Positions 32,181 to 49,128 of a stretch of 64,000 nt of DNA are shown piece after piece (within the stretch, counting starts at the first letter, position 1; each line of letters starts with the position of its first letter). Under the pieces are notes generated by a model. It had not been told where the DNA came from. It saw only the letters and a list, made by a program, of their open reading frames with translations, and made no database searches. Position numbers and translations under genes: made by a program. Source of the stretch: Clostridia bacterium (GTDB taxonomy: Bacteria; Bacillota; Clostridia; Christensenellales; Aristaeellaceae); contig JAFUFB010000003.1 of the NCBI GenBank assembly GCA_017470145.1, forward strand, positions 62,001 through 126,000, read 5' to 3'.

Positions 32181-33965
32181 ATGAAAATCATTTACAACGA
32201 CGGTCACGTGGCGGACTGTCCTCCCGAGCTGGAGCTGGATACCCTGCGGCATTCCGCGGCCCATATCATGGCTCAGGCCGTGAAACGGCTGTATCCCGAC
32301 GCCCATTTCGCCTATGGCCCGGCCACGGAGAAGGGCTTCCATTATGACATCGACATGGGCGATGTAAAGCTGACGGACGAGGATCTGCCCGCTATTGAAA
32401 AGGAAATGCAGAAGATCGTGAAGGAAAACCTGCCCTTCAAGGTCTATCCCCTGCCCCGGGAAGAAGCGGTCAAGCTGATGCAGGATCGGGGAGAGAAGTA
32501 CAAGGTGGAGCATATCGCCGACCTGCCGGAAGACGCGGTGATCACCTTCTATCAGCAAGGGGATTATATCGACATGTGCGTCGGCCCGCACCTGACCTAT
32601 ACTAAGGCCCTGAAGGCTTTCAAGCTTACGGCCTTGTCCGGCGCCTATTGGAAGAATGATCAGAAGAACAAGATGCTGACCCGGCTGAACGGCGTGGCCT
32701 TCCGCAACGCGGAGGAGCTGGCTGCCTACGAGAAGGAAGTGGAGGAGGCCAAGGCCCGGGATCATCGGCGCATCGGCAAGGATATGTCCCTCTTCATGCA
32801 GGATGACCTGATCGGCAAGGGCCTGCCCATGTTCCTCCCCAAGGGATATACCCTCTGGCAGCAGCTGGAAAACTATATCCGGGAAAAGGAGCGGGAGCTG
32901 GGCTATCAGCATGTGCTGACCCCCTGCGTCGGTACGGTGGATCTGTACAAGACTAGCGGCCACTGGGAGCACTACAAGGACAATATGTTCCCGGCCATGG
33001 AAGTCGAAGGGGAGACCTTCGTGCTGCGGCCCATGAACTGCCCCCACCATATGCGGATCTATGCCAACGCCCTCCATTCCTATCGGGATCTGCCCATCCG
33101 CATCGGCGAAATCGCCCATGACTTCCGCTTCGAGTCCAGCGGCACCCTGAAGGGCATCGAGCGGGGCCGGCATTTCTGCCAGAACGACGCCCACCTGTTC
33201 GTGACGCCGGAGCAGATCAAGGACGAGGTCAGCAGCGTGTGCGACCTGATCTTTGACACCTATAAGGATTTCAACATCACCAATTATCGCTGCGTCCTGA
33301 GCCTGCGGGATCCGGAGGACAAGGTGAAGTACCATCAGGACGACCAGATGTGGGAGACGGCGGAAAACGCCCTGCGGGAAGTGCTGACGGAGCTGGGTAT
33401 CAACTTTACGGAGGAGATTGGCGAGGCTGCCTTCTACGGGCCGAAGCTGGACGTGAACGTGAAGCCGGCTGTGGGCGCGGAGTATACCCTCAGCACCTGC
33501 CAGCTGGACTTCTGCCTGCCGGCGAAGTTCGATCTGAAGTACGTGGATCGGGACGGCACGGAGAAGACCCCCGTGGTGCTGCATCGGGCCATCCTGGGCA
33601 GCCTGGACCGCTTCATGGCCTATATCATCGAGGAAACCAAGGGCATTTTCCCCACCTGGCTGGCGCCGGTGCAGGTGAAGGTGCTGCCGGTTTCCGACAA
33701 GAGCATGGATTATGCCGAGAAGGTGTATCGCCAGCTGCGGAAGGAAGGCGTCCGGGTGGAGCTGGATGACCGGAACGAGAAGATCGGTTACAAGATCCGC
33801 TATGCTCGTCAGGTGGATAAGGTGCCCTACATGATCATCCTGGGCGAGAAGGAAATCGCGGAGAACAACATCTCCGTCCGGGATCGGGCCACCGACCAAA
33901 CCAACGTATACACCGTAGATGAATTCGCCAATAAAATCCGCCAGGATGTGGCAGAAAAGAAATAA
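32181..33965 (+). CDS. thrS: Threonyl-tRNA synthetase lacking the TGS domain
   Basis: Charges tRNA-Thr with threonine in the cytoplasm. AAGGAGGGA precedes the ATG at 32181, giving 594 residues, about 45 fewer than the common form. After only about 24 residues the editing-domain motif HSAAHIMAQAV appears, so the N-terminal TGS domain is missing. The editing site, the class II motif 2 (FRFESSGTLKGIERGRHF) and motif 3 (HRAILGSLDRF) are present. Cys287 in MNCPHH and the later His residues are the expected zinc ligands. The C-terminal anticodon-binding domain is complete. Expression is under the T-box leader. It sits between the AAA pair and the SNF2 gene without an obvious functional tie to them. 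Confidence 0.95.
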   Translation: MKIIYNDGHVADCPPELELDTLRHSAAHIMAQAVKRLYPDAHFAYGPATEKGFHYDIDMGDVKLTDEDLPAIEKEMQKIVKENLPFKVYPLPREEAVKLMQDRGEKYKVEHIADLPEDAVITFYQQGDYIDMCVGPHLTYTKALKAFKLTALSGAYWKNDQKNKMLTRLNGVAFRNAEELAAYEKEVEEAKARDHRRIGKDMSLFMQDDLIGKGLPMFLPKGYTLWQQLENYIREKERELGYQHVLTPCVGTVDLYKTSGHWEHYKDNMFPAMEVEGETFVLRPMNCPHHMRIYANALHSYRDLPIRIGEIAHDFRFESSGTLKGIERGRHFCQNDAHLFVTPEQIKDEVSSVCDLIFDTYKDFNITNYRCVLSLRDPEDKVKYHQDDQMWETAENALREVLTELGINFTEEIGEAAFYGPKLDVNVKPAVGAEYTLSTCQLDFCLPAKFDLKYVDRDGTEKTPVVLHRAILGSLDRFMAYIIEETKGIFPTWLAPVQVKVLPVSDKSMDYAEKVYRQLRKEGVRVELDDRNEKIGYKIRYARQVDKVPYMIILGEKEIAENNISVRDRATDQTNVYTVDEFANKIRQDVAEKK

Positions 33966-34004
33966 GCATAACAAAAGCCGCCGAATGGCGGCTTTTGTTA
34001 TGCT
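33965..34004. terminator. Terminator after thrS
   Basis: An 18-bp perfect stem (AGCATAACAAAAGCCGCC and its complement) with GAAT loop; the 3' arm carries CTTTTGTT. Confidence 0.85.
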
Positions 34005-34030
34005 GGGGAAAGGGGCAGGGGGTAAAGGGG
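34005..34030 (+). other. G-quadruplex-type motif upstream of SNF2 gene
   Basis: GGGG-AAA-GGGG-CA-GGGGG-TAAA-GGGG on the coding strand, 93 bases before the SNF2 start. A related motif lies at 43149-43179. Confidence 0.55.
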
Positions 34031-34122
34031 CTCCCGCCCGCTGGAAAGTAGAAAAACAGGCAGGAAATCCCATAACAAAAGGAGAAGTAGTAAAAGTTAA
34101 TAACATTTTCCAGGAGGCAAGG

Positions 34123-37017
34123 ATGGATCAGCTGGAATTGGAACTGCAGCGGGAAGCCCCCAAGCGCGGCGAAGAACTCCTCTCCCTCATCGAGGGCGAG
34201 CTCCCCGCGGAGACGAACCTCCGCATGGAGATCACCCTGGTGCTGCCCCGGGCCGGAGAAGAAAACCTCCGGGCCGGCTTGCGCATCGGCCAGGGAAAAT
34301 GGTACGTGGTTAAGGATATTCCCCAATTCCTGGAAGCCTGGCGGGAAAAATCCCCCTTGAACTTCCAGAGCAAATTTGTCTACGAGCCCTCCTGGATGCA
34401 CTTTTCAGAAACCAACGAAGCCATCCTGCAGCTGCTGGATCGGATGCTTTCCGCCAGCCAGTTAGGCAAATGGATGCCCAGCCAGGCGGAAGCCCGGCTG
34501 CTGCGCCTGCCGGATAACATCGCCGGGCAGCTGCTGCGCCTGCTGGAGAGCCTGCCGGTGCGGGTTATGGACCCGGAAGGGGAGATTCATTCCACCCGCG
34601 CCCTGGCGGAAAAGCCCATTCCCATGCAAGCGGAATGCCGCATGATGCCCCGGGGGCTTTCCATCACTCTGTCCCTGCCGGAAGAAATTCAGCCCCTGAC
34701 CCAGGATTGCGCCTATGGCCTTTCCACCGAGGGGCCCCAGATCATTCCCGCCAACCAGCGGGCCCTGCTGCGGTTCCTGCTGAGACGCCGGCAGGAGGGC
34801 TTGGTGCGCCTGGATTACCCCCTGCAAGCCATGGATCAGGCCGTAGGGGAGGTGCTGCCCTATCTGAAAACCCGCTGCGCCGTGGAAATGAGCGAGGAGC
34901 TGCGGGAAATGCTGGTGCGCAAGCCCCTGGAATCCCGGGTGTATCTGGATCGGGATGGCCGCAGCGTGGTGGCCAAGGTGCTGTTTAAGTATGGCGACAT
35001 GGAGCTGAACCCCTTCGCTCCCAGCGGGGTGAAGGTAGCCCTGGAGCGTGGTGAAAAGCTGCTGCTGCGAGACGCGGAGGGGGAGCACGCGGTGCTGGAT
35101 ATCCTGGCCAACGCCGGCTTCCGGGTCACGAAGGAGAATATCCGCCTGAGTCAGGAGGAGGCTCTGTTCCGCTTCCTGAACGAAGGCGTCAAGCGCCTGG
35201 GGGAGGTCAGCGAAATCTTCCTCAGCCGGGATTTCCGCCGCATGGAGAATCGGCGTCCCGCCCTGCGGGGCGGGCTGCGGATGGAAAGTGGCAGCTTGCT
35301 GATGAATCTGGAGATCGATGGCGCGCCTACGGACGAGATTTTAGGCATTATGGAGGCCCTGAGCCGCTCCCGGCAGTATTACCGCATGAAGGATGGCACC
35401 TTCCTGAATCTGGAATCCCTCCAGGGCTGGCAGGAGGGGGCGGAGGCCATCCGGGAGGCCGCGGAGCGGGACGGCGCGAAATGGGAAAAGGACGCCCTGT
35501 CCCTGCGGAGCTATCGGGCGGGCTATCTGGTCCGCATGCTGCAGGAGCTGGGCCTGCCAGTGGAGGCGGATGAATCCGCCCAGGAGGTGGCGGAGGAGAT
35601 CAGCGGCCAGCGGGCCCCTGCCCCGGCGCCGGAGACGGGCATCCCCCTGCGGGATTATCAGCGGCGGGGATACGAATGGATGTATATGCTGGACCGGCTG
35701 CATATGGGCGGTGTGCTGGCGGACGACATGGGCCTGGGGAAGACCGTGCAGGTCATTGCCCTGCTGAAGGCCACCCGCCAGCCGGATCGTACCAGCCTGA
35801 TCGTGGCCCCCACCAGCCTGGTGTATAACTGGCTCAGCGAGATCAAGCATTTCGCCCCGGATCTCAGCGCAGCGGTGGTGACCGGGGCCCTGGCCCAGCG
35901 GGAACGGATGTGGGCCCATTTGAAGGAGCATGGGGATGTGGACGTGGTCATCACCAGCTATCCCCTGATCCGGCGGGATCTGGAATATTTAGCGGAGATT
36001 CCCTTCCGCTTCGCCGTGCTGGACGAGGCCCAGAACATCAAGAACGCCAGCAGCCAGGTGGCCATCGCCGCCCGGAAAATCCAGGCGGACACCCGGCTGG
36101 CCCTGACGGGCACCCCCATGGAAAACGGGGTCGGGGAGCTGTGGAGCATCTTCGATTTCGTGCTGCCGGGGTACCTGCCGGGATACAATGCCTTCCTGCG
36201 GCGGTATCAGGACGGCATGAACAGCGAACAGCTGCGGAATCGGATTCGCCCCTTCCTGACTCGGCGGCTGAAGCAGGATGTGGCCTCGGAGCTGCCGGAC
36301 AAGGTGGAAACCCGGCTGGTGGCTGCCATGACGGCGGAGCAGCGGAATGTCTACCGGGCTGCTATGGAGCGGCTGCGGCCCAAGGTGCAACAGGTCATGG
36401 AGGAGAAGGGCCCAGGCCGGGGGCATTTCGAGGTGCTCAGCGCCCTGACGGAGCTGCGGGAAATCTGCTGCGATCCGGGCCTGGTGCTGGAGGGCTACGA
36501 TGGGGGCAGCGGCAAGGAAGAGATGCTGATGGAGCTGCTGCCCGGGCTCATCAAGGCGGGGCGGCGGGTGCTGATCTTCAGCCAGTTCACCTCCATGCTG
36601 AAAAAGCTGCGGCCCCATCTGGAGCGGGAGGGATACACAACCCTGTATCTGGACGGCGAAACCCCGGCAGGGGAGCGGCTGGAGATGACGGAGAAATTTA
36701 ACGGCGGGGAAGGCCAAATCTTCCTCATCAGCTTGCGGGCCGGGGGCTCCGGCTTGAACCTGACGGGGGCGGACGTGGTGATTCACTATGACCCCTGGTG
36801 GAACCCCGCGGCGGAGGAGCAGGCTACGGACCGGGCCCACCGCATCGGCCAGACCAAGCAGGTGGACGTGATTCGCCTGGTCATGGGGGAAAGCATCGAG
36901 GAAAAGGTGGTGGAGCTGGGGGAAAGGAAGAAGGCCCTCTTCGACCGCCTCATCACCCCCGGGGAATCCGGCCTGGAAGCCCTCAGCGCCCAGGATATTC
37001 GAGGATTGTTTGACTGA
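34123..37017 (+). CDS. SNF2-family helicase/ATPase
   Basis: 964 residues, a DNA-dependent ATPase that moves along duplex DNA. AGGAGG lies five bases before the ATG at 34123; the frame is open further upstream but without a start signal. The N-terminal 450 residues match the helicase-associated region of bacterial SNF2 proteins by position and pattern; the SWIM-type zinc motif often found at their start is not seen. The ATPase begins near LRDYQRRGYEWM (about 510). Walker A is DDMGLGKT with Lys540, motif II is DEAQ at Asp634, LTGTPMENGVGELWSIFDF is motif III, and the second lobe ends with DRAHRIGQTKQV. Zorya systems include an SNF2-like ZorD, and a Zor-like pair lies 9 kb away, but this gene also resembles a common housekeeping-type helicase. 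Confidence 0.92.
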   Translation: MDQLELELQREAPKRGEELLSLIEGELPAETNLRMEITLVLPRAGEENLRAGLRIGQGKWYVVKDIPQFLEAWREKSPLNFQSKFVYEPSWMHFSETNEAILQLLDRMLSASQLGKWMPSQAEARLLRLPDNIAGQLLRLLESLPVRVMDPEGEIHSTRALAEKPIPMQAECRMMPRGLSITLSLPEEIQPLTQDCAYGLSTEGPQIIPANQRALLRFLLRRRQEGLVRLDYPLQAMDQAVGEVLPYLKTRCAVEMSEELREMLVRKPLESRVYLDRDGRSVVAKVLFKYGDMELNPFAPSGVKVALERGEKLLLRDAEGEHAVLDILANAGFRVTKENIRLSQEEALFRFLNEGVKRLGEVSEIFLSRDFRRMENRRPALRGGLRMESGSLLMNLEIDGAPTDEILGIMEALSRSRQYYRMKDGTFLNLESLQGWQEGAEAIREAAERDGAKWEKDALSLRSYRAGYLVRMLQELGLPVEADESAQEVAEEISGQRAPAPAPETGIPLRDYQRRGYEWMYMLDRLHMGGVLADDMGLGKTVQVIALLKATRQPDRTSLIVAPTSLVYNWLSEIKHFAPDLSAAVVTGALAQRERMWAHLKEHGDVDVVITSYPLIRRDLEYLAEIPFRFAVLDEAQNIKNASSQVAIAARKIQADTRLALTGTPMENGVGELWSIFDFVLPGYLPGYNAFLRRYQDGMNSEQLRNRIRPFLTRRLKQDVASELPDKVETRLVAAMTAEQRNVYRAAMERLRPKVQQVMEEKGPGRGHFEVLSALTELREICCDPGLVLEGYDGGSGKEEMLMELLPGLIKAGRRVLIFSQFTSMLKKLRPHLEREGYTTLYLDGETPAGERLEMTEKFNGGEGQIFLISLRAGGSGLNLTGADVVIHYDPWWNPAAEEQATDRAHRIGQTKQVDVIRLVMGESIEEKVVELGERKKALFDRLITPGESGLEALSAQDIRGLFD

Positions 37018-37138: not shown

Positions 37139-37194
37139 ACGCGCTGGTTTGAACGAATTTGTACGCGCTTTTGCGGCCGAAGGGAGGGGAGCGG

Positions 37195-40100
37195 ATGGAC
37201 ACCAATACCGGCAACGGGATTCATGGGCGCAGGTCCGCTTCCCGGGCGACGAAGCTGCGCCGCAGAAGGCAGCGGCTGAATTTCCTGCTTTTGGCAGGGA
37301 TGATCGCCGCCATCGCGCTGATCGTGCTGGTGACTCCGAAAGAACCCCTACAGCAGGCGGTGTATACCATCGCCTCCGAGGACGGCACGGTGGGGGACGG
37401 CGTCCGCCTGGTGACGCAATACGAGGGCCTGCGTATCAGCGAGGTCATGCCCTCGAATCGCAGCGCTGTGACGGACGAAAATGGCGAATATCCGGACTGG
37501 ATTGAGATCTGGAACAGCTCCGACGCCGCCATGAACCTGAAGGGCCTGGGCCTCAGCGACCGCAGTGACAGCATTCGCTTCCTCTTTCCGGACATGACTT
37601 TGCCGGCGGACGGGCGGATGATTATCTTCGCCTCCAACAGCAATCAGGCGGATCCCGGCCTGCCCTTCCACGCGAAATTCAAGCTTTCCAGCGTCGGGGA
37701 AACGGTGTATCTCTACGACCCCAATGCTTATCTGATCGACAGCTGCAAATATCCCATCCTGGGCTCCGATGAGAGCTGGGCCCTGACGGCGGAGGGTTTC
37801 CAGGCGGTGGAATACTTCAGCCCCGGGTTTGAAAACTCTCCGGAGGGCCATCAGGCTTATCGGGAGAGCATCATGGTCTCCGGCGGCGCCTTGATCATCA
37901 ACGAGGTGATGGCGGACCCGATGACGGGCCTGCGGGATGAGGACGACGAGCTCAGTGACTGGGTGGAGATTTATAACACCACGGCAAATGCTGTCAGCCT
38001 GGATAATTACGCCCTCAGCGATAATGAGAGCAAGCCCCTGAAGTGGCGCTTCCCCAAGGGCGCCAGCATCCCCGGGTATGGATACTACGTAGTGTTCTGC
38101 TCCGGGAAGGACAAGGTGGAGGCCGTCTCCGGCGTGCCCCACAGCAATTTCAGCATCTCCGCAGAGCGGGAAACCATCATCCTGGCGGACAGTCGGGGCC
38201 ATGTGGTGGACCGGGTCATGATCGACAACCTGGCGGAGGATTGCAGCTATGGCCGCAACGACCAGGGGACCATGCAGGTTTTCCAGACGGCGACCCCCGG
38301 CCTGCCCAACAATCAAATCGGCTTCAATCAAATGGACAGCAACCTCCGGGCTATGAACCCCTCCGGGGTGTATATCAGCGAGGTGCTGGCCTCCAATGAT
38401 TCTATTACGACCTATCCCTCCGGCGGCAACACGGACTGGATCGAGCTGTACAATTCCTCCTCCCAGAGCGTGGATCTTTCCGGATATGGGCTCAGCGATC
38501 GGCTGACCCGGGGGCGGAAATGGCAGTTTCCTCAAGGGACCATCATTGGCGCGGGGGAGTATAAAATCGTCCTGTGCGATGGCGCCCGGGGCTCTACCGA
38601 CGTGGGGGTGCTGCGGGCCAGCTTCAAGCTGAACCGGACCGCAGGCGAAACCCTGGCCTTTACGGACCCGGAGGGGCGCGTTCTGGATAAGGTGATCCTG
38701 CCGGTGCAGCGGACCGATATTTCCTATGGCCGGACCTTGGGGATGTCGGGCTTTTTTTATTATGAGACTCCCACGCCCTTCCAGATGAACGGCCAGGGCT
38801 TCGCGGGATACGCGGAGGAGCCCAGCCTGACGGAGGCGCCGGGGACGTACTTCTCCACGGTGTATGCCCAGATCAATGTGCCTGAAGGAACCCAGGTGTA
38901 TTACACCACCGATGGTTCCGACCCCACCACCGCCTCCACGCCCTATAACGGCGAGCGGCTGGAGCTGAACTTTACCACGGTGCTGCGGGCCCGGGCCTTC
39001 GCGGCGGATCCGAACCTGCAGCCCAGCGAGATCGTGACGGGGACGTATCTTATCAACGCCTATCACACCCTGCCCATCGTCTCCCTGGTCACCAATCCCG
39101 CCAATCTGTGGGATCCGGTGAACGGCATGCTGGCGGAGGGGAACATCCTGAAGGAAGCCCCCGGCAAGCTGCCCTTTAAGAATTCCACCTATCGGGCGGT
39201 GAAGGACAGCGGCGCTCGCTTCCCGGTGCATGTGGAGATGTACGACACCGACGGCACTCAGATTTTGAACCAGGGAGCCCAGTTCAGCCTCATGGGGGAT
39301 TACAGCCTGGATATGCCCCAGAAGAGCATGAAATTCCGGGCCAAGAGCCTCTATGGCGCCAAGACCTTCGCCGCCGCCCTGTTCCCGGATCGGGAGTATA
39401 CGGAGTATAAGAGCTTCGTCCTGCGAAACAGCGGAAATGACTCCATGTGGACCCGGCTGCAGGATGGTTTCGAGAGCCGGCTGCTGGATTATTACGGCGC
39501 CACCGTGATCCATCAGGCCTGGCGGCCCGTGGCGGTATACCTTAACGGTACCTACTGGGGCCATATGAACCTGCGGGAGCGGGTGGATAAGTTCTTCGTC
39601 GCCCAGCATGAGGGCTTGCCCTTCGACCAGGCGGACGATTTCGACATCCTGCAGGCCAGCGGCTCCACCAAGTATGGCAGCAACAAGGAATTCAAGGCCA
39701 TGCTGAAAAAGATCAAGGCTGGCAATCCCGCCAAGAACGAGGAGGATCTGCAGTACATCCTGGATAACGTGGATGTGGATAACCTCTTCGAATATATGGC
39801 CCTGGAGATGTTCGTTGGCAATAGCGATATCGGTAACACCCGGTTCTATCGCCTGAAGGGCACGGACGGGAAGTGGAAATGGATCTGGTACGACGCGGAC
39901 TACGGCCTGTTTATGTCCAACTTCGATAGCCCCAAGAGCTATACCAAGGAGAAGGGCATGGGCCAGCAGAACATCGACAACACCATCTTCCGAAAGCTGC
40001 TGTCCGTGCCGGAGTATAAGGACCAATTCCTGCGAAAGCTGGGGGATGTGTTCCAGACCCTGACCACCAAGACCATGCTGGAAATTCTGGAGCCCCTGGT

Positions 40101-40359
40101 GGAGCAAATCACCCCCGAGATGGAGCTGCATTGGGCTCGCTGGGGTGAGGAAAACGACCAGATGGTGCTGTCCGAAGTGCCCACCACCGTGGACGGCGCC
40201 TACAGATACTGGGAGAAGCGGGTGGAAAGATTGCGCAATGTCTGCCGCAAGCGCCCCACCTATCTCTGGGAAATGGTCCAGAACGCCTTTGACCTGACCA
40301 ACGCGCAGATGGTGGAATATCTGGGAGAAAAGCCCGATATGCCCCCAGACGCGGTATAA
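37195..40359 (+). CDS. Membrane-anchored CotH-kinase protein with lamin-tail domains
   Basis: 1054 residues with the ATG at 37195 (GGGAGGGGAGCGG upstream). A basic tail and one helix (about 27-45) anchor it, with the rest outside. Three lamin-tail-type domains follow, marked by ISEVMPSNRS...DWIEIWN, INEVMADPM...DWVEIYN and ISEVLASND...DWIELYN. Then comes a chitobiase-C-type beta domain (YYTTDGSDPT, about 570) and a CotH domain (about 640-990, with RNSGNDSMWTRLQDGF, YWGHMNLRERVDKFF and WIWYDADYGLFM). CotH proteins are atypical kinases that phosphorylate spore-coat or surface proteins. It leads a cluster with DUF4956 and VTC genes, an arrangement recurrent in clostridia, pointing to surface phosphate or polymer chemistry. 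Confidence 0.88.
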   Translation: MDTNTGNGIHGRRSASRATKLRRRRQRLNFLLLAGMIAAIALIVLVTPKEPLQQAVYTIASEDGTVGDGVRLVTQYEGLRISEVMPSNRSAVTDENGEYPDWIEIWNSSDAAMNLKGLGLSDRSDSIRFLFPDMTLPADGRMIIFASNSNQADPGLPFHAKFKLSSVGETVYLYDPNAYLIDSCKYPILGSDESWALTAEGFQAVEYFSPGFENSPEGHQAYRESIMVSGGALIINEVMADPMTGLRDEDDELSDWVEIYNTTANAVSLDNYALSDNESKPLKWRFPKGASIPGYGYYVVFCSGKDKVEAVSGVPHSNFSISAERETIILADSRGHVVDRVMIDNLAEDCSYGRNDQGTMQVFQTATPGLPNNQIGFNQMDSNLRAMNPSGVYISEVLASNDSITTYPSGGNTDWIELYNSSSQSVDLSGYGLSDRLTRGRKWQFPQGTIIGAGEYKIVLCDGARGSTDVGVLRASFKLNRTAGETLAFTDPEGRVLDKVILPVQRTDISYGRTLGMSGFFYYETPTPFQMNGQGFAGYAEEPSLTEAPGTYFSTVYAQINVPEGTQVYYTTDGSDPTTASTPYNGERLELNFTTVLRARAFAADPNLQPSEIVTGTYLINAYHTLPIVSLVTNPANLWDPVNGMLAEGNILKEAPGKLPFKNSTYRAVKDSGARFPVHVEMYDTDGTQILNQGAQFSLMGDYSLDMPQKSMKFRAKSLYGAKTFAAALFPDREYTEYKSFVLRNSGNDSMWTRLQDGFESRLLDYYGATVIHQAWRPVAVYLNGTYWGHMNLRERVDKFFVAQHEGLPFDQADDFDILQASGSTKYGSNKEFKAMLKKIKAGNPAKNEEDLQYILDNVDVDNLFEYMALEMFVGNSDIGNTRFYRLKGTDGKWKWIWYDADYGLFMSNFDSPKSYTKEKGMGQQNIDNTIFRKLLSVPEYKDQFLRKLGDVFQTLTTKTMLEILEPLVEQITPEMELHWARWGEENDQMVLSEVPTTVDGAYRYWEKRVERLRNVCRKRPTYLWEMVQNAFDLTNAQMVEYLGEKPDMPPDAV

Positions 40360-40374
40360 AAGGAGGACAAAACC

Positions 40375-41076
40375 ATGGAAACCGCCACCACAAGCATCAA
40401 AAACGTCCTGAAGAGCGACGCTGGCCTCAGCGAATACTTCACCAACCAGTTCATCAGCCTCACCCCCTGGAAAATCCTCATCGGCCTGCTGATGGGCTGC
40501 GTCGTCGGCCTTATCATCGCCTTCGTCTACAAGCGCTGCTACCGCGGCGTGCTCTACAGTCCGTCCTTCGCTATGACGCTGATGATGCTGACCCTCATCA
40601 CCACCCCGGTGGTCATGTGCATCAAGAGCAACATCTCCCTCAGCATGGGCATGGTGGGCGCCCTGAGCATCGTCCGTTTCCGTACGGCCGTGAAAGACCC
40701 CATGGACACCGCCTATATGTTCTGGGCCTTGACCATGGGCATCCTGCTGGGGGCGGAGATGTACGTCCATGCCCTGATGGTGGTGCTGGTCATCAGCGCC
40801 ATCCTCTTCGCCATGTCCTTCTTCCATTTCAGCAAGAGCAATGCCTATCTGCTGGTGGTGCATTATGACGACTATGCCGAGCAGGATATCACCCAGCTGC
40901 TGCGCCGCACAGTGAAGCAGCGGAAGCTGCGATCCAAGACCGTGACACGCTCCGGCGCAGAGATGACCGTGGAAGTTCGCCTGGACAGCAAGCAGGATCT
41001 GGTGGCCGCGGTGCTGAACCTGGAAGGCGTCCATGACGCGACCCTGGTGGCCTGCCAGACGGAAGCGGGGGCGTAA
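40375..41076 (+). CDS. DUF4956 membrane protein
   Basis: 233 residues, 15 bases after the CotH gene, with AAAGGAGG upstream. About four helices (about residues 32-52, 62-82, 85-100 and 118-145) are followed by a cytoplasmic alpha/beta domain of about 75 residues. The motif GALSIVRFRTAVKDPMDTAY (88-107) is characteristic of DUF4956. The family often neighbours VTC-type polyphosphate polymerases and CotH; its biochemical role is not known. Membrane transport or tethering of the VTC product is a reasonable guess. Confidence 0.88.
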   Translation: METATTSIKNVLKSDAGLSEYFTNQFISLTPWKILIGLLMGCVVGLIIAFVYKRCYRGVLYSPSFAMTLMMLTLITTPVVMCIKSNISLSMGMVGALSIVRFRTAVKDPMDTAYMFWALTMGILLGAEMYVHALMVVLVISAILFAMSFFHFSKSNAYLLVVHYDDYAEQDITQLLRRTVKQRKLRSKTVTRSGAEMTVEVRLDSKQDLVAAVLNLEGVHDATLVACQTEAGA

Positions 41077-41086
41077 ACCGGTGGCC

Positions 41087-41791
41087 ATGAACACATTGCC
41101 CCTGCGGCACGAGCTGAAGTACTTTATCAACGAGGAGCAGTATTATGTGCTCTCCGGGATATTGGACCGGGTGCTGAACAGGGACCCGAATGGGGATGAG
41201 TACAACGAGTACCACATCCGCAGCCTGTATTTCGACACGGTGTATAACTCCGCCCTGTTCGACAAGCTGGATGGCAACCCCAACCGGGATAAATTTCGGA
41301 TTCGGATCTATAACTTCAGCGACCGGGTCATTAAGCTGGAATGCAAAACCAAGGTGGGCAGCCTCATCTCCAAGCGCAGCCAGACCATTCCCCGGCTCCT
41401 CTGCGAGCAGCTTATGGCTGGTGATCCGGCTGGCCTGGAAACAACCCGCAGCGGTCTGCTGAACGACATGTATCGGGAAATGACGGTGAATCTGCTGCGC
41501 CCCGCTGTGCTGGTGGACTACGTCCGCGAAGCTTATCTCCATCCGGCGGAGGAGGTGCGCATCACCTTCGACAAACAATTACGGACTGGCCTGTGGAGCA
41601 AGGATCTGTTCAATCCCCAGGTGCCCACCATCCCGCCCTTTGATGAGAACTGGATGATCCTGGAAGTGAAGTTTAACCAGTTCCTGCCCCCCTATATCCG
41701 CGACATCCTGAACACCTACTGCGCCGGAGCCATGCAAAGCGCCATCAGCAAATACACCTGGTGTCGCCGTTTCGAAGAACTGGAAGCGTAA
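41087..41791 (+). CDS. VTC-domain protein (polyphosphate-polymerase-like)
   Basis: 234 residues; a GTG six bases upstream of the ATG at 41087 is an alternative start. The tunnel fold of VTC proteins is marked by RHELKYFI (residues 6-13), SLYFDT, RDKFRIRIYN, KLECKTK, VDYVREAY and ILEVKFN; the paired basic residues in these strands bind phosphate or triphosphate in studied homologues. It lacks the SPX domain and membrane part of the yeast protein; DUF4956 may supply the membrane part. It is soluble and cytoplasmic here. Whether it makes polyphosphate or another phosphate product is unknown. Confidence 0.87.
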   Translation: MNTLPLRHELKYFINEEQYYVLSGILDRVLNRDPNGDEYNEYHIRSLYFDTVYNSALFDKLDGNPNRDKFRIRIYNFSDRVIKLECKTKVGSLISKRSQTIPRLLCEQLMAGDPAGLETTRSGLLNDMYREMTVNLLRPAVLVDYVREAYLHPAEEVRITFDKQLRTGLWSKDLFNPQVPTIPPFDENWMILEVKFNQFLPPYIRDILNTYCAGAMQSAISKYTWCRRFEELEA

Positions 41792-43231: not shown

Positions 43232-45118
43232 ATGGACCAACTAATCTCCAAATGGCACCGAGAGCTGGAGCTCTTCAGCGGCATTAAACCCTTGCTGATC
43301 CTGGAAGGCAACGTCCTGGATCAGTACCGTTACCCCGTGGCGGGTAGCCTGCAGCAGGATGAAATCGTCCCCCTGAGCCGTTATCTCTACACCTATTTCA
43401 AGGACGAGGGCTATGACCAGATTGTCTTCTACAGCAATCTGGTAGGCTTCGTCAGCCCCTATGATCCCACCATGCTCTCCCGCTATGCTTCTCTCTCCGG
43501 CGCGGAGATTTCCCAAGGAGCCATCCAGGCGGAATTCAAGGGCAACGACGCCAACACCGCCCCCAACGTGATTCGCCGGGCAATGGGCCAGCAGCAGGCG
43601 GCCACTGTCACCGTGCTGGAGATGGCCAGCCATTATATCACGACCCCCGAGCGCATGGATCAGCAGGATGTGAATAGCTTCAACATCCTGCTCCAGAGTG
43701 CCCTCAGCAGCGCCTGGGTGAAAACCCCGAACGGCAAAAAGCAGAATCTGCTGGTGATCCTGGTCAATAAGTTGAATGACCTGCCCACCTGGTTCTATCT
43801 CAACAACCCTGTCTGCAAGATCCTGACCTTGGACGCCCCCAGCCGGGAGGAGCGGAAGCGTATGCTGGAGGGAGAGAACCTGGCCGGCTTCTTCTCCGGC
43901 ACGGTCTATCGCCGGGATATGCCCTATTATCGGGAGCACCCGGAGGAGCTGGAACGTATCCGGGAGCGCTTCGTGGGTCTGACGGAGGGCCTCACCTTTA
44001 CCGAGCTGGAGGAGATGCGCCGCCTCAGCAAGCAGGAGGAGACTCCGATCCGGGATCTGTGCACCGTGGTGGATCTCTATAAATACGGCATCAAGGAGAA
44101 CCCCTGGAGCACCCTTAGCGTGAAAAGCCTGAAAACCGCTAAGCAGGATTTTGAAAAGCGGATCAAGGGCCAGGACGCCGCCCTGGAGCGGACCCTGGAC
44201 GTGGTGAAGCGGGCGGTCACCGGCATGAACGGCGTCAATTCCTCCTCCACCGGTAAGCCTAAGGGCGTCCTGTTCTATGCCGGACCCACGGGAACGGGCA
44301 AAACGGAAACCGCCAAAGCCCTGGCGGAAAAGCTGTTCGGCGACGAAAGCGCCTGCGTCCGCTTCGACATGAGCGAATATGGCCAGAGCCATTCGGACCA
44401 GAAGCTGATGGGCGCCCCTCCCGGATATGTGGGCTATGAGGCCGGCGGCCAGCTGACCAACGCCGTGAAGGAGAACCCCTTCTGCATTCTGCTGTTCGAC
44501 GAAATCGAGAAGGCCCATTCCTCCATTCTGGATAAATTCCTGCAGATTCTGGAGGATGGCCGCATGACGGATGGCCAGGGCAAGACGGTCTATTTCTCCG
44601 AAACCATCATCATCTTTACCAGCAACCTGGGCATCTACGTCAAGGACGCCTTTGGCAACCGCCAGCCCAATGTCACCATGGACATGGAGTACAGCGAGGT
44701 TCGCACTCGGGTTCGTTCCGCCATTGAGGATTATTTCAAGCTGGAGCTGGGTCGCCCGGAGATCCTAAACCGCATTGGCGAGAACATCGTTGTCTTCGAT
44801 TATATCCGCAAGGATGCCGCCAAGCTGATCCTGAAGAGCCAGGTGAATAAGATCATCAACAACCTGCGGGAGCAGAAGAACATCAGCATCCGCATTGAGG
44901 ATTTTGCTTATCAGAGCCTGGAGGACGCCGCTACCTTCGATCTCAGCAACGGTGGACGGGGCATCGGTAATCAGGTGGAGAGCCTGCTGGTGAACCCCTT
45001 GAGCCGGTGGATGTTCGATAACAGCGTGATTCAGGACGCGAATCTGGTCATCGAGGGCTTCGACACGGCCGCGAACCCGCCAGCCCTCCGGTGCCGCGTA
45101 GAGGAGGCAGAGGCATGA
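43232..45118 (+). CDS. Clp/HSP100-type AAA+ ATPase
   Basis: 628 residues. The N-terminal 280 residues look like a degenerate AAA domain without a Walker A motif (LLILEGNVLDQY, TVTVLEMASHY). The C-terminal module matches the second ATPase domain of ClpB/ClpC: Walker A GPTGTGKT (351-358), pore loop APPGYVGYE, Walker B LLFDEIEKAH (Asp423-Glu424), sensor ITSN-like FTSNLG and the arginine-finger region GRPEILNRIGEN. Proteins like this thread or remodel other proteins. There is no Clp N-domain or ClpP-binding loop. GACGGAGGA precedes the ATG. The stop overlaps the next start by four bases (ATGA), so the two are coupled. Confidence 0.88.
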   Translation: MDQLISKWHRELELFSGIKPLLILEGNVLDQYRYPVAGSLQQDEIVPLSRYLYTYFKDEGYDQIVFYSNLVGFVSPYDPTMLSRYASLSGAEISQGAIQAEFKGNDANTAPNVIRRAMGQQQAATVTVLEMASHYITTPERMDQQDVNSFNILLQSALSSAWVKTPNGKKQNLLVILVNKLNDLPTWFYLNNPVCKILTLDAPSREERKRMLEGENLAGFFSGTVYRRDMPYYREHPEELERIRERFVGLTEGLTFTELEEMRRLSKQEETPIRDLCTVVDLYKYGIKENPWSTLSVKSLKTAKQDFEKRIKGQDAALERTLDVVKRAVTGMNGVNSSSTGKPKGVLFYAGPTGTGKTETAKALAEKLFGDESACVRFDMSEYGQSHSDQKLMGAPPGYVGYEAGGQLTNAVKENPFCILLFDEIEKAHSSILDKFLQILEDGRMTDGQGKTVYFSETIIIFTSNLGIYVKDAFGNRQPNVTMDMEYSEVRTRVRSAIEDYFKLELGRPEILNRIGENIVVFDYIRKDAAKLILKSQVNKIINNLREQKNISIRIEDFAYQSLEDAATFDLSNGGRGIGNQVESLLVNPLSRWMFDNSVIQDANLVIEGFDTAANPPALRCRVEEAEA

Positions 45119-45861
45119 GCGAAGAGAATAAGAGCCCGACCAATATCAACAATGCCCAGGAGGAATGGCTGCGCCGCTTGAAGGCCATCGGGGTGGATCT
45201 GTGGGGCAACGGCCCTTCTCAGCAGGCCCGGGAGGAGGCGGAGCAAGCGGTGGAGAAAGATTTTGCCGCGGAAGCTGCAACTGCCCAGCCCACAGTCCCT
45301 GCGGCAACGGGCAAGAAGCCGGAAGCTCCGCAGCCTGTGACCGCGAAGCGCCCGAAGCTGACCATCGAGAACCTGTGGATTACGGCGGATGAAACCGTGG
45401 ATTGGACGGAGGCCCTCCTGCGGGAGACGGCCCGGGATGGGCTCACCAGCCCCAAGTTGTGGAGCTTCTATCACCGCATGGCCCCGAAGGTATTGGCGGG
45501 GGATACCGGCGCCTATGCGGAGGTGCTGACCACCATCAATCCCCTGGGAGACCTGACGGAATATGTGTCCGGCATGGTGCTGCGTACTCCTGGGCCGGAT
45601 CAGCTGGAGTGCATCTTTGAGTGCCAGCCGGATGATCTGGAAAAGTATGGGCGGGACTATCTGGGAGCCCTCAGCCTGCGCACTGCCCGGGATCTGCTGG
45701 CCATTCTGCCCGTGTCCGAGGTAAAGATCACCGGCAACCTGGAGAAGGAGCAAAAGGTCAAAGTCACCTTTCACCGGCATCAGCTGCTGAAGAAGAAGAT
45801 GGCTTTCCTCAACCCCGCCGATTTCCTGGAAGCCTGCGGCGGAGAAATCAATGAAGATTAA
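45115..45861 (+). CDS. Unknown partner of the Clp-type ATPase
   Basis: 248 residues, not recognised. The first 40 residues are helical and charged (QEEWLRRLKAIGVDLW), then an Ala/Pro/Lys linker (about 50-85), then a folded domain of about 160 residues (LTIENLWITADETVDWTEAL; ending FLNPADFLEACGG). There is no signal peptide or membrane helix. The four-base overlap with the ATPase gene implies a 1:1 complex, for example an adaptor. A candidate role in linking the ATPase to the nearby motor is inference only. Confidence 0.8.
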   Translation: MSEENKSPTNINNAQEEWLRRLKAIGVDLWGNGPSQQAREEAEQAVEKDFAAEAATAQPTVPAATGKKPEAPQPVTAKRPKLTIENLWITADETVDWTEALLRETARDGLTSPKLWSFYHRMAPKVLAGDTGAYAEVLTTINPLGDLTEYVSGMVLRTPGPDQLECIFECQPDDLEKYGRDYLGALSLRTARDLLAILPVSEVKITGNLEKEQKVKVTFHRHQLLKKKMAFLNPADFLEACGGEINED

Positions 45862-45999
45862 GAAACTCCCGGGGTGCGAGCGTAGCGATTAACCACGGTG
45901 ACGATTGTTTCGACTAAGTAATGGCATACCATTCGACGTGTCGCTGAATTGTTCCGCCCAAGAGATTGAAATTTTCGTGAAGAAAATGTCAAAAAGGGG

Positions 46000-46028
46000 T
46001 TGACGGGAACCATAAAATCCATTATACT
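46000..46028 (+). promoter_or_regulatory. Strong promoter for the 6S-like RNA
   Basis: TTGACG, a 17-base spacer, TATACT (46023-46028). Bases 45862-45999 hold nothing recognisable. Confidence 0.8.
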
Positions 46029-46034
46029 ATGACC

Positions 46035-46246
46035 ATTCACCTGGGGTTCGCGACAGTCCTTCGGTTTTCCCCACATTTCGAAAAATGGAGCCCGGGTCCA
46101 AGATTCGCAATGTCACGCCCCCGTCCTGGACGTCAGGGGACGGCAGAAGCGATCGGCAGGGCGCCAGCCTGCTTCACATAGCGGGTGAAAAAACGGGGAC
46201 ATCGGCTCCCTGGGCCTAAAAACTTCCTGAAAGGGAAGTTTTTTTG
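46035..46246 (+). ncRNA. ssrS: Probable 6S RNA
   Basis: A promoter, about 190 bases of GC-rich structured RNA and a terminator with no open frame. The 5' part CCTGGGGTTCGCGACAGTCC resembles the 5' side of the 6S central bubble (compare GTTCGC...CAGTCC in the E. coli RNA), and the 3' part GACATCGGCTCCCTGGG resembles GGCATCTCGGAGA. The ends can pair (CCTGGGG with CCCTGGG through two G-U pairs), and inner stems such as GCAGG/CCTGC are present. 6S RNA binds RNA polymerase in slow growth. Assignment is by eye; a covariance-model search would settle it. Confidence 0.65.
46220..46246 (+). terminator. Terminator of the 6S-like RNA
   Basis: AACTTCC pairs with GGAAGTT around a short loop, followed by Ts. 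Confidence 0.85.
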
Positions 46247-46363
46247 TGAGAAAAGGGAAGGGCAGAGCGGCATCCCCTGGAGCAATTTGTTAACAAAATG
46301 TTTCATTTACATTTCTAAAATAAGATGATATAATGACATATCTGGAAGAAGGAGGGCCGAACC

Positions 46364-47659
46364 ATGACTTTGCCTGACCTGTCGAAGGTAACCGCGATCC
46401 TGCCGGATCTGGCGGATTATATTGTTTATGGCGCGATCGTCATTGTGACGTTGATTGGACTGTTTAAATGCCTGATGCCCCTATGGAACACCTCCGCGGC
46501 GCTGCGGCGGGCGATTCGTCGGCTGCAGGACCATGTGGGGGATCCCGGCAAACCAGTTTGGCAGGAGGCCGGCTTCATGGGGAGGCGGCTGAAGGGCTCC
46601 TGGCTGCGCTTTTTGCAGAACGCGGAGCAGCTGGATCGCCGGGGTCTGCCCACCAATGTGGAGGACTACATCAACGACGACACGGTAACCCACTCCCACG
46701 GCAACGCCACCCTGGCGGAGCTGATTCCCAATCTGCTGACCTCCTTGGGTATTTTGGGTACCTTCATGGGCCTGAGCCGGGGCTTGTCGAGCCTGAACTT
46801 CGCCGACGCCAGTCAGCTGATTTCCGGCATCCCAAACCTGCTGAGCGGCATGCGTTTTGCCTTTGGCACCTCCGTGGCGGGTATCTCCTGCAGCCTGGTG
46901 TTCAATATGCTGAATCGCATCTCCCAGGGCTCCAGCTATCGGGCCATTGATGATTTTGTTTCCTCCTTTACCCAACTGGCCATGAGCCGGCCCCTGGACA
47001 ACGATGTGCAGCTGATTTGCCAGAACCAGGACCGGAACCACATGCTGCAGGGGATCAATGATACCTTGGCAGAGCGGATGGCGGAGAATGTGGGCCTGGC
47101 CATTACCCGGGCGATGGAGCCGGTGGCGGGCAGCATGGATCGGTTTATCGTCGGGGCGACCCGAAACCAGATCGAGGGCGTGCACCGGATCGTGAGCCGC
47201 TTCCTGGAGGAGATGGAGCAATCCCTGGGCGGGCAGATTCAGCACCTGGGAGATACCCTGGACGCGGTTTCCTCCAATCAGATTTTGGCGGCGCGGCAGG
47301 CGGAAAGCACCCTGCGGTCCGCGGACAGCATCGTCCGGGACGCGGAAAGCCTACGGAAGCTGACGGACCAGGTGCTGGTCCGGTTTGACGGGTATGTGGC
47401 GGAATTGAAGGAGACCCGGAGCCGGGACGAAGACTTCGAGAAAAAATCCGGGGAACTGCTGATGCAGATGAGCAAGCAGAACCAGGAATTGGCAAAGCTG
47501 ATGGACAGCCTTTCTCAGCGGGTGGACGAAATTCCGGACGCGGAAGCCAGAGAAGCCACCAATGTAACCCTGGCACAGATCTGGGGGATTACCAACGCGC
47601 TGAACGAAAGCGTGCAATCCATCGACAAGACCCTGACCGCCCTTTCGGAGGAGGTCTGA
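46364..47659 (+). CDS. MotA/TolQ/ExbB-type ion-channel subunit with coiled-coil tail (ZorA-like)
   Basis: 431 residues. A first helix lies at about 19-38. The MotA/ExbB core follows, with ELIPNLLTSLGILGTFMGLS (about 119-138) and FGTSVAGISCSLVFNML (about 167-183). From about residue 230 a long, helical, heptad-rich cytoplasmic tail extends to the end. Length and layout resemble ZorA of Zorya defence systems more than flagellar MotA. GAAGGAGGG precedes the ATG. The next gene, four bases on, encodes the MotB-like partner, so together they should form an ion-driven stator complex in the membrane. No flagellar genes lie nearby. Confidence 0.85.
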   Translation: MTLPDLSKVTAILPDLADYIVYGAIVIVTLIGLFKCLMPLWNTSAALRRAIRRLQDHVGDPGKPVWQEAGFMGRRLKGSWLRFLQNAEQLDRRGLPTNVEDYINDDTVTHSHGNATLAELIPNLLTSLGILGTFMGLSRGLSSLNFADASQLISGIPNLLSGMRFAFGTSVAGISCSLVFNMLNRISQGSSYRAIDDFVSSFTQLAMSRPLDNDVQLICQNQDRNHMLQGINDTLAERMAENVGLAITRAMEPVAGSMDRFIVGATRNQIEGVHRIVSRFLEEMEQSLGGQIQHLGDTLDAVSSNQILAARQAESTLRSADSIVRDAESLRKLTDQVLVRFDGYVAELKETRSRDEDFEKKSGELLMQMSKQNQELAKLMDSLSQRVDEIPDAEAREATNVTLAQIWGITNALNESVQSIDKTLTALSEEV

Positions 47660-47663
47660 GCCC

Positions 47664-48635
47664 ATGGCAAGACAATCTATTCATAACCGGCGGGCGGGGC
47701 GGGGATCCACGGGAGGTGGCGCCTCCTGGATCTCCTATTCCGACATGATGGCGGCGCTGCTGCTGATCTTCGTGCTGATATTGACCTACAGCCTGTATCA
47801 ATACTTCACCATGCTGGAGACCAAGACGGCGGAGCTGGAGGAGCAGCAGACGCTGCTGCTGGCCCAGCAGGTGTTGCTAAACAGCAAGGAAGAGGAGCTC
47901 AGCAGCCTGCAGATTTCCCTGGACACAAAGCAGCAGGAGCTGGACGAAGCCAATGCCCAGCTGCTGACCCGGGAACAGCTGCTGGCCCTGCTGCAGCAGC
48001 AATTGGAGGACAAGGAAAACGAGCTGACCCTGGCCACGGCGAAATTGGAGGAACAGCAGATTGCCTTGGCTACTCAGGCCCGGCGGCTGGACGACCTGGT
48101 GGGCGTGCGGACGAACATCATTCGGGATCTTTCCTCCTCCCTGACGGCGGCGGACCTGAAGGCAAAGGTGGACGCCAATGGCTCCATCGTGCTGGACAGC
48201 GCGGTCTTCTTTGAAACGGCACGGTCCGAGATCAAGGAGGAAGGCAAGGCGCTGCTGGATCGGTTCATTCCGGTGTATCTGGATGTGCTGCTGAGCGACG
48301 AATACGCGGATTTCCTAGGGGAAATCATCATCGAGGGGCACACGGATTCCACTGGTACCTATGACAACAACTTGAAGCTGAGCCAGGAGCGGGCCCTGCA
48401 GGTGGCGCTGTATGTGCTGAATATGCCGGGGCTCACCCGTCAGCAGAAGACGCTGCTGCAGCAGATTTTGACCGCGACGGGGAAATCCTGGGCGGATCTG
48501 ATCTATGACGAAAACGGCGTCGAGGATGCGGAGGCCTCCCGGCGGGTGGAGTTTAAGTTCTCCCTGCGGGATGCGGATATGATTGAGGAAATGCAGCGTA
48601 TTTTGCTGGAGAACGAGCTGGATTTGGAGGAATAA
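47664..48635 (+). CDS. MotB/OmpA-type partner with long coiled coil (ZorB-like)
   Basis: 323 residues. The N-terminal SYSDMMAALLLIFVLIL holds Asp27, matching the ion-carrying Asp of MotB-type proteins, within a single helix (about 28-48). A coiled coil of about 90 residues follows (KTAELEEQQTLL to ARRLDDLVG), longer than in MotB. The C-terminal OmpA-type domain (about 170-310) has EGHTDSTGTYDNNLKLSQER, which binds peptidoglycan. GGAGG lies upstream. The coiled coil would set the reach from membrane to cell wall; in a thick-walled cell that spacing may explain its length. Confidence 0.87.
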   Translation: MARQSIHNRRAGRGSTGGGASWISYSDMMAALLLIFVLILTYSLYQYFTMLETKTAELEEQQTLLLAQQVLLNSKEEELSSLQISLDTKQQELDEANAQLLTREQLLALLQQQLEDKENELTLATAKLEEQQIALATQARRLDDLVGVRTNIIRDLSSSLTAADLKAKVDANGSIVLDSAVFFETARSEIKEEGKALLDRFIPVYLDVLLSDEYADFLGEIIIEGHTDSTGTYDNNLKLSQERALQVALYVLNMPGLTRQQKTLLQQILTATGKSWADLIYDENGVEDAEASRRVEFKFSLRDADMIEEMQRILLENELDLEE

Positions 48636-48645
48636 GGAAAGAGAG

Positions 48646-49128
48646 ATGCGACCAGTCGCAATTATACTGCTGATCATCTGCTTAGGGATGATCGGCTTCA
48701 CCGGGTTCCTGTATTTCAACGCCAATGTGGTCATTACGGATATCGACTGCATCGCGGTGGACGCGGGGGACCAGGCGGAGTATTTCCAAGGCCTAAAGGA
48801 CCAGATCGAGGCGGGAACCTTCGTGGGGACGCCCTTTAACACCGCGGAGGTGGGGAAGGCGGAGGAGTACCAGTTCTATTCCTACACGGTGCATGTAGCG
48901 AACGACACCTTCATTAAGGCGGAGGTGGCGGAGGTGCAGGTGACCCCCATGAACGGGGATGTGCTGCAATTAGCGGAAGAAAACGCCCGGACGATTCCTG
49001 CTCGAGGGAAGGGGACCATCCAGGCTACCATCCTGACCAAGAAGGAAATGCACAATGTACGGGAGCTGATGGTGACCTATTATCTATGGGGATTACCCTT
49101 CTCTGCCAGGGTGACATACAGCGAATAA
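48646..49128 (+). CDS. Single-helix membrane protein of unknown function
   Basis: 160 residues with the ATG at 48646 (AAGGAAAGAGAG upstream), ten bases after the ZorB-like gene. One N-terminal helix (about 5-24) anchors an outside domain of about 130 residues, mostly beta by pattern (YQFYSYTVHVANDTFIKAEV, KGTIQATILTKKEM). It resembles an Ig-like or late-embryogenesis-type beta sandwich but no family is recognised. Operon position suggests it is a component of the motor complex. Confidence 0.8.
   Translation: MRPVAIILLIICLGMIGFTGFLYFNANVVITDIDCIAVDAGDQAEYFQGLKDQIEAGTFVGTPFNTAEVGKAEEYQFYSYTVHVANDTFIKAEVAEVQVTPMNGDVLQLAEENARTIPARGKGTIQATILTKKEMHNVRELMVTYYLWGLPFSARVTYSE

Follow-up and report, generated by a model that had tools for sequence, protein, structure and literature searches.

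Gene organization of the locus

We analyzed five neighbouring genes in a 64,000-nucleotide stretch of a Clostridia bacterium genome (contig JAFUFB010000003.1), hereafter called the window. They code for a Clp/HSP100-type ATPase, its partner protein, a ZorA-like motor subunit, a ZorB-like wall-binding subunit and a small one-helix protein that we call P5. The host is represented by a draft genome of 2.45 Mb that is 84% complete. An original prediction, made from the letters alone, had proposed that the five genes combine an ion-driven stator with an unfoldase in a new envelope machine or defence system. All five open reading frames (ORFs) were found where that prediction had placed them, between positions 43232 and 49128 (Table 1). 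The partner gene starts inside the stop codon of the ATPase gene (ATGA) and its product matched no family in Pfam, PADLOC or NCBIfam, in agreement with its description as a coupled protein of unknown kind. The partner gene is separated from the ZorA-like gene by 503 bases, ZorA and ZorB are 5 bases apart, and ZorB and P5 are 11 bases apart.

Table 1. Features of the motor and ATPase units and their surroundings in the window
Feature	Position	Strand	Remarks
SNF2_assoc-type helicase (not ZorD)	33919..37017	+	SNF2_assoc, SNF2 and Helicase_C domains; ~9.3 kb upstream of ZorA
CotH with lamin-tail domains	37159-40359	+	Pfam; context of ATPase unit
DUF4956	40375-41076	+	Pfam; context of ATPase unit
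VTC polyphosphate polymerase-like	41033-41791	+	Pfam; context of ATPase unit
Clp/HSP100-type ATPase, 628 residues	43232..45118	+	AAA_2 162 bits; one active AAA+ domain after an N-terminal region of ~300 residues; separate unit
ATPase partner protein, 248 residues	45115..45861	+	ATGA overlap with ATPase; translationally coupled; separate unit
Promoter-like site of 6S RNA, TTGACG-17-TATACT	46000..46028	+	10/12 consensus matches
6S RNA gene	46035..46220	+	RF00013 34.4 bits; probable gene between both units
Promoter-like site before ZorA, TTTACA-17-TATAAT with TG	46306..46334	+	11/12 consensus matches
ZorA-like motor subunit, 431 residues	46364..47659	+	membrane core and C-terminal coiled-coil tail
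ZorB-like wall-binding subunit, 323 residues	47664..48635	+	Asp27 in a single helix; OmpA-like domain after a long coiled linker
P5, third motor-operon gene, 160 residues	48646..49128	+	one N-terminal helix and ~130 residues predicted outside

Linkage of the motor and ATPase genes

The linkage of the two groups of genes was compared across genomes. We searched 100 genomes for each orthologue, requiring a full-length match of at least 71% identity for the ATPase and at least 60% identity for ZorA. Both orthologues were present in 35 genomes. They lie within 3 kb of each other in five of these, on the same strand in G000, G042, G018 and G007 and convergently in G014. Four genomes (G002, G023, G036 and G044) carry both genes on one multi-megabase contig, 394 kb to 2.9 Mb apart, and 25 carry them on different contigs. 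In each of these 25, a check of the coordinates by hand gave, for one or both genes, over 6 kb of contig on the side where the other would be expected. The remaining genome (G026) has both genes at contig ends, where linkage is undecidable. Near relatives differ too: ZorA of G019 is 86% identical, yet its motor and ATPase are separate. An independent locus set consisted of the best 80 of 379 ZorA loci; among the 72 that extend 3.5 kb or more upstream of ZorA, four have the ATPase there. Outside the genus, 13 of the family's 15 other genera showed the motor but no full-length ATPase orthologue.

We conclude that the suspected five-gene machine is two separate units, which are neighbours in few genomes. 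A single machine in which the ion motor and the Clp-type unfoldase cooperate would accord with their adjacency on one strand in the window and three other close pairs, and with their proximity in the convergent fifth. Against it stand the 29 of 35 genomes in which the genes are unlinked, the other genera that have the motor without the ATPase, and the probable 6S RNA gene in between. The ATPase also keeps other company, tracking its own partner and a CotH-VTC cluster in the genus and, in more distant relatives, lying beside kinase, FHA, 4Fe-4S/radical SAM and PP2C genes. We therefore regard a joint machine as very improbable. The original prediction had called for a survey of homologous neighbourhoods for constant pairing of the five genes, and this survey found two units instead. 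It is a negative result: a motor-plus-unfoldase machine that looked plausible in one genome dissolved upon comparing 35.

Similarity of the motor to ZorA and ZorB

We compared the motor subunits to known ion-driven stators. The ZorA-like protein has a Pfam MotA_ExbB match of 23.6 bits, barely above the cut-off of 22.9, and is the sole above-threshold MotA_ExbB protein in the 84% complete host genome. It matches PADLOC ZorA models down to E 7e-23 and has a long C-terminal coiled coil. A ZorA family profile of 24 sequences had ZorA 8qyd as its best PDB match (E 3.5e-29). No MotA, ExbB or TolQ chain was among the 60 PDB sequences found at E ≤0.01, the remainder of which were coiled coils and helical bundles. 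The ZorB-like protein matches OmpA with 43 bits and PADLOC ZorB1 with 214 bits. Its PDB matches were ZorB 8qyd_F (E 6.6e-26), 8vvi (E 2.4e-24) and MotB (E 3.5e-12). Both proteins score below the NCBIfam cut-offs, with 76.7 of 100 bits for ZorA and, far below, 71.5 of 400 bits for the ZorB equivalog.

Residues of both subunits are conserved. T133 and S170 of ZorA are invariant in 24 sequences and correspond in alignment to T147 and S184 of the E. coli protein, which are presumably part of the polar ring. D27, H226, N236, R243 and R293 of ZorB are invariant in 27 sequences. The Zorya paper speaks of conserved serines and threonines (PMC11890865).

Motors of other kinds were considered. A flagellar stator, or the remnant of one, would explain the MotA_ExbB match, the status of ZorA as the only such protein in the genome, and a sub-threshold MotB_plug match of the ZorB-like protein. 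The PDB profile matches argue otherwise, favouring ZorA without any MotA, ExbB or TolQ chain and ZorB (E 6.6e-26) over MotB (E 3.5e-12). In addition, no FliG_C was found in 37 genomes of the genus, the host's own among them, while 4 of 14 control genomes were positive. A flagellar assignment is hardly credible and was rejected on these two grounds. The claim that no flagellar genes are near held for this one marker in the 37 genomes of the genus, and the pair did not group with flagellar stators in the profile searches. A Tol/Ton motor does not fit either: the outer membrane marker Omp85 was found in 0 of 31 genomes (19 of them of the genus; controls positive in 7 of 14), and the ExbD match of ZorB, at 15.4 bits, is below the cut-off. 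The window motor shares with MotAB and ExbBD/TolQR (the "FIT" and "GIT" of PMC12505986) an ion-driven A/B pair and a one-helix B subunit, but it has weaker or no profile matches to them and its relatives lack FliG and Omp85. We are confident that the motor is a ZorA/ZorB-like pair, as originally predicted, and not a flagellar one.

We also built a tree of the ZorA core. With MotA and ExbB included it was unusable, having 113 columns, MotA and ExbB branches of length 10, and a Zorya II row beside the window row. The only supported group in the ZorA core tree consisted of rows whose loci carry a gene for a TPR protein (see below).

Distribution of the motor

ZorA matches were present in 57 of 60 genomes of the family, including all 23 that are at least 90% complete, and in all 15 other genera of the family. 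Beyond the family, 40 genomes of its order yielded a match in one. ZorB follows ZorA in 79 of 80 loci. Because no Omp85 or FliG_C was found in the genomes searched for them, the bacteria that carry the motor look monoderm and non-flagellated. The motor seems to belong to the normal core gene set of a family of gut bacteria. A class-wide search with the ZorA profile matched 73 of 291 genomes, many only in coiled-coil columns, and is not a count of motors.

Further ZorA-like genes were seen in some genomes. Three genomes have a second ZorAB pair (L055:15305-18765, L067:7674-11260 and L068:2351-5841) with a ZorB of 647-699 residues and no P5 by blastp. Two other genomes, both of the genus (G022 and G029, loci L076 and L077), share a cassette of at least eight gene families that includes a distant ZorA-like gene, and the usual motor orthologue is absent from them.

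Relation to Zorya

ZorAB motors are known as part of the antiphage system Zorya. A core ZorAB motor in bacteria that look non-flagellated and monoderm raises two questions: which task it has in a cell with a single membrane, and whether defence or housekeeping came first. We compared the window motor to both types of Zorya. Type I (8qyd, 8vvn) provides the best-matching solved ZorA and ZorB, and the window motor keeps the GTF..TS motif of the ZorA core, the Asp of the ZorB helix and the OmpA-type wall-binding residues. Unlike type I, it has no adjacent ZorC or ZorD but P5 in their place, and its ZorA has 431 residues versus 680 in G295. The linkers of ZorB differ as well. The distance from the Asp to the His of the GHTD motif is 199 residues in the window and ranges from ~192 to 319 across 27 sequences of the family, whereas two ZorBs from clostridial Zorya I loci have 127 and 145, and two long paralogues 378 and 425. 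Type II (ZorA-ZorB-ZorE; 8vvi) is also matched by the window ZorB (E 2.4e-24). No HNH (ZorE) gene lies directly behind ZorB in the window, no genome-wide ZorE search having been made, whereas G138 (L230) has ZorA, ZorB and an HNH gene in a row.

The remaining Zorya components were examined in the window and in relatives. No ZorC, ZorD or ZorE gene lies beside the motor in the window, as the original prediction had noted. A search of 61 relatives, 37 from the genus and 24 from the order, found no EH_Signature domain of ZorC (PF15611); the 14 control genomes were silent too. The same model matched 3 of 291 genomes of the class, and two of these matches (G295 and G328) are ZorC genes within complete ZorA-ZorB-ZorC-ZorD loci. 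ZorD of true Zorya in the class has SNF2 and Mrr domains where tested (L226). The SNF2 helicase upstream of the window ATPase had been suggested to be of the fold class of ZorD. It carries an SNF2_assoc domain and no Mrr_cat domain, an architecture that is not ZorD-like, and it scores 519.6 bits against pilus_reg_Snf2 versus 227.4 bits against ZorD, both under the cut-offs. We rejected it as ZorD; in other genomes this gene goes with the CotH-ATPase cluster.

These comparisons bear on the possibility that the motor is a reduced Zorya, which would sense phage-damaged walls and act through P5 or an unlinked nuclease. Its closest relatives are antiphage ZorA and ZorB, and curated NCBIfam models name such pairs "anti-phage ZorAB system". 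However, both subunits miss the cut-offs of these models, and EH_Signature is absent from the 61 relatives even though the model detects ZorC in the two Clostridia with complete Zorya. P5 begins with a membrane helix and had no nuclease match in family and PDB searches. Defence systems usually have a patchy, horizontally spread distribution. The motor does not, being core to the family with ZorA in 57 of 60 genomes. A reduced Zorya is thus unlikely, though it deserves some weight. The label "anti-phage ZorAB" can rest on the motor alone.

P5 and other third genes

P5 is the third gene of the motor operon. It has a single hydrophobic stretch (residues 1-30) followed by ~130 residues, as read from hydropathy. 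P5 follows ZorB in 76 of 80 ZorA loci. Two of the four misses are at contig ends (L166 and L178), a third has P5 ~4 kb further on (L121), and the fourth (L184) is unexplained. The next commonest neighbour family occurs in 36 of 81 loci, mostly on the opposite strand. P5 had no consistent match in family or PDB searches; the commonest Pfam name was given to three of 54 members, none of them with an E-value below 0.048. It is essentially absent outside the family: the one clear match in 291 class genomes is the host's own genome, and a second match (E 3.9e-5), inside a frame of 3,163 residues, is probably due to chance. We slightly favour the view that P5 belongs to the motor as a subunit on the outside. 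A search of the open literature on standalone ZorAB gave no account of an operon that joins ZorAB with P5.

Other third genes occupy the same position elsewhere. Three loci (L073, L074 and L075) have, behind ZorB, a one-helix protein of 178-194 residues that we call c34. A profile comparison of c34 and P5 gave a probability of 0.3%, with no detectable homology, so the two have the same architecture and belong to different families. In other Clostridia, orphan ZorA-ZorB-TPR loci resemble the window in having a ZorAB-like pair, a fixed third gene and no ZorC, but their third gene codes for a TPR protein rather than P5. Five of nine loci examined are of this kind: L231 and L236 have Pfam TPR matches, and L232, L234 and L235 read as similar. 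In L229:3771-6886 (G107), the gene behind a ZorA-like gene codes for a protein of 524 residues, which combines a MotB-like N-terminal helix with SpaA-type prealbumin-fold domains. The domain search reported no OmpA domain in it, and its motor is possibly anchored through another wall domain.

A model for the two units

We consider it probable that the window holds, next to a separate unfoldase unit, a standalone, wall-anchored motor of the ZorAB type that has an outside subunit peculiar to the lineage and works for the envelope, not for phage defence. Two independent transcription units would meet here. By homology to solved ZorAB, the ZorA-like and ZorB-like proteins would assemble as five A and two B subunits and, with P5, form an ion-driven motor. 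Ions passing Asp27 and the Thr/Ser ring would make the pentamer of ZorA rotate relative to ZorB, and ZorB would hold on to peptidoglycan by its OmpA-like domain, through an unusually long linker. P5, held outside the membrane by one helix, would be the fixed third subunit and would most likely act as a plug, sensor or lever in the wall zone. The motor may serve wall maintenance or wall-stress sensing. We infer such a housekeeping role from the presence of the motor as a core gene, at a single locus and without adjacent ZorC, ZorD or ZorE, in a family that looks monoderm and non-flagellated; on balance we lean toward it over defence. The upstream unit would consist of a Clp/HSP100-type unfoldase and its dedicated partner, tied to the CotH-DUF4956-VTC surface cluster. 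The original description of a candidate new envelope machine is thus fair for the motor trio and not for a five-gene set that includes the ATPase.

Several observations weigh against a core housekeeping motor with P5 as its subunit. Core-gene status does not exclude immunity. The negative result for ZorC applies to genomes of the genus and of the order but not to the family's 15 other genera, and those for ZorD and ZorE apply to the surroundings of the motor. G015, G027 and G033 had no ZorA row among the 60 family genomes, and two of the 57 positive genomes (G022 and G029) had only distant ZorA rows of 27-28% identity. P5 is not universal, since a profile search of the 15 other genera found P5 in nine, c34 in three and neither in three. 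Finally, only 2 of 29 inner branches of the ZorA core tree were starred, and rows with P5 did not form one clade.

A gated channel was weighed as an alternative to a motor. The linker of ZorB and P5 might sense wall tension and signal it by opening the pore of ZorA, with no torque produced. This would suit the long and length-variable linker (199 residues versus 127 and 145), and the Zorya paper proposes wall sensing by ZorB. On the other hand, the ZorA tail is kept, and in Zorya, according to the same paper, the tail is required as the cytoplasmic output (PMC11890865). Sequence cannot separate a channel from a motor. We judge a tension-gated channel to be improbable and retain the standalone motor as the preferred explanation.

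The window motor might represent a further class of ion-driven, wall-anchored motors. These would be core ZorAB-type stators with a housekeeping role in the envelope of monoderm, non-flagellated Clostridia, with their own third subunit in each lineage (P5, c34 or TPR), and Zorya may be a specialised offshoot armed with ZorC and ZorD or with ZorE. We offer this as a tentative proposal.

A probable 6S RNA gene and promoter-like sites

The stretch between the two units contains a probable 6S RNA gene. It matches RF00013 over its full length with 34.4 bits (E 2.7e-5) and is not listed at the gathering threshold of 46.4, so standard annotation would miss it. Fifteen relatives align and fold alike, and 9 of 57 pairs show compensatory changes. 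A 6S-homologous stretch lies near the motor in many relatives whose ATPase is elsewhere. Relatives also have the stretch around the promoter-like site ahead of their ZorA genes, even at loci that have no ATPase. Four promoter-like sites were found versus 3.0 expected in shuffles, and a terminator scan gave 7 versus 6.8 expected; neither count is above chance. A hairpin with a T-run after the 6S gene was read by eye and is absent from the scan list.

The ATPase, its partner and the surface cluster

The AAA_2 match of the ATPase is well above the cut-off of 27 bits, and its ClpB D2-small match (20.6 bits) is just under the cut-off of 21.9. Walker A (GPTGTGKT), Walker B (LFDE), the pore loop (PGYVGYE), sensor 1 and the arginines are conserved in 10 relatives, and the best PDB match is a ClpB-type D2. 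Like ClpB, ClpC and HSP100, the window ATPase has an AAA+ D2-type module with all the motifs of an active unfoldase. Unlike them, it has just one active AAA+ domain, and no IGF/IGL ClpP loop was seen in the alignment. Against the two-domain ClpA/B/C equivalogs of NCBIfam, only the second domain is covered, with at most 257.7 of 1232 bits. The N-terminal 310 residues have no Walker A and no PDB match at E 10, and may be a decayed AAA domain.

The ATPase is tightly linked to its partner. The two genes are at most 132 bases apart in all 39 genomes that have both (38 full-length ATPases and the G028 fragment). In G051 there is a distant match to the partner but no orthologue of the ATPase, and G003 and G025 have ATPase fragments without a partner match. 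In 14 of 17 genomes VTC lies no more than 3.4 kb upstream of the ATPase and shares its strand; the exceptions are G022, whose contig has 3.2 kb upstream, and G052 and G046, which belong to other genera. CotH, polyphosphate polymerase and DUF4956 genes also form an accessory cluster beside the pel operons of Gram-positives, as described in PMC7112168. The same three genes lie upstream of the window ATPase, but no pel genes are named in the window, and the ATPase and its partner are appended. The passages of PMC7112168 on that cluster mention no ATPase.

ATPase relatives in other families have different neighbours. They adjoin a Fer4_12/radical SAM gene, at most 50 bases away in 6 of 8 loci. In the same eight loci, which are partly truncated, tblastn found a kinase in four, FHA in three and PP2C in three. 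The ATPase of the genus looks like a branch of a signalling-associated family with a newly acquired partner. One locus on a 44-kb contig (L083, G002:C2, 15-14925) has in a row a helicase-nuclease, two Ser/Thr kinases, FHA, radical SAM/4Fe-4S, a Clp-type ATPase 57% identical to that of the window, PP2C and DUF6273. Its kinase and helicase match PADLOC models and the others do not, and the locus is a possible signalling or defence island.

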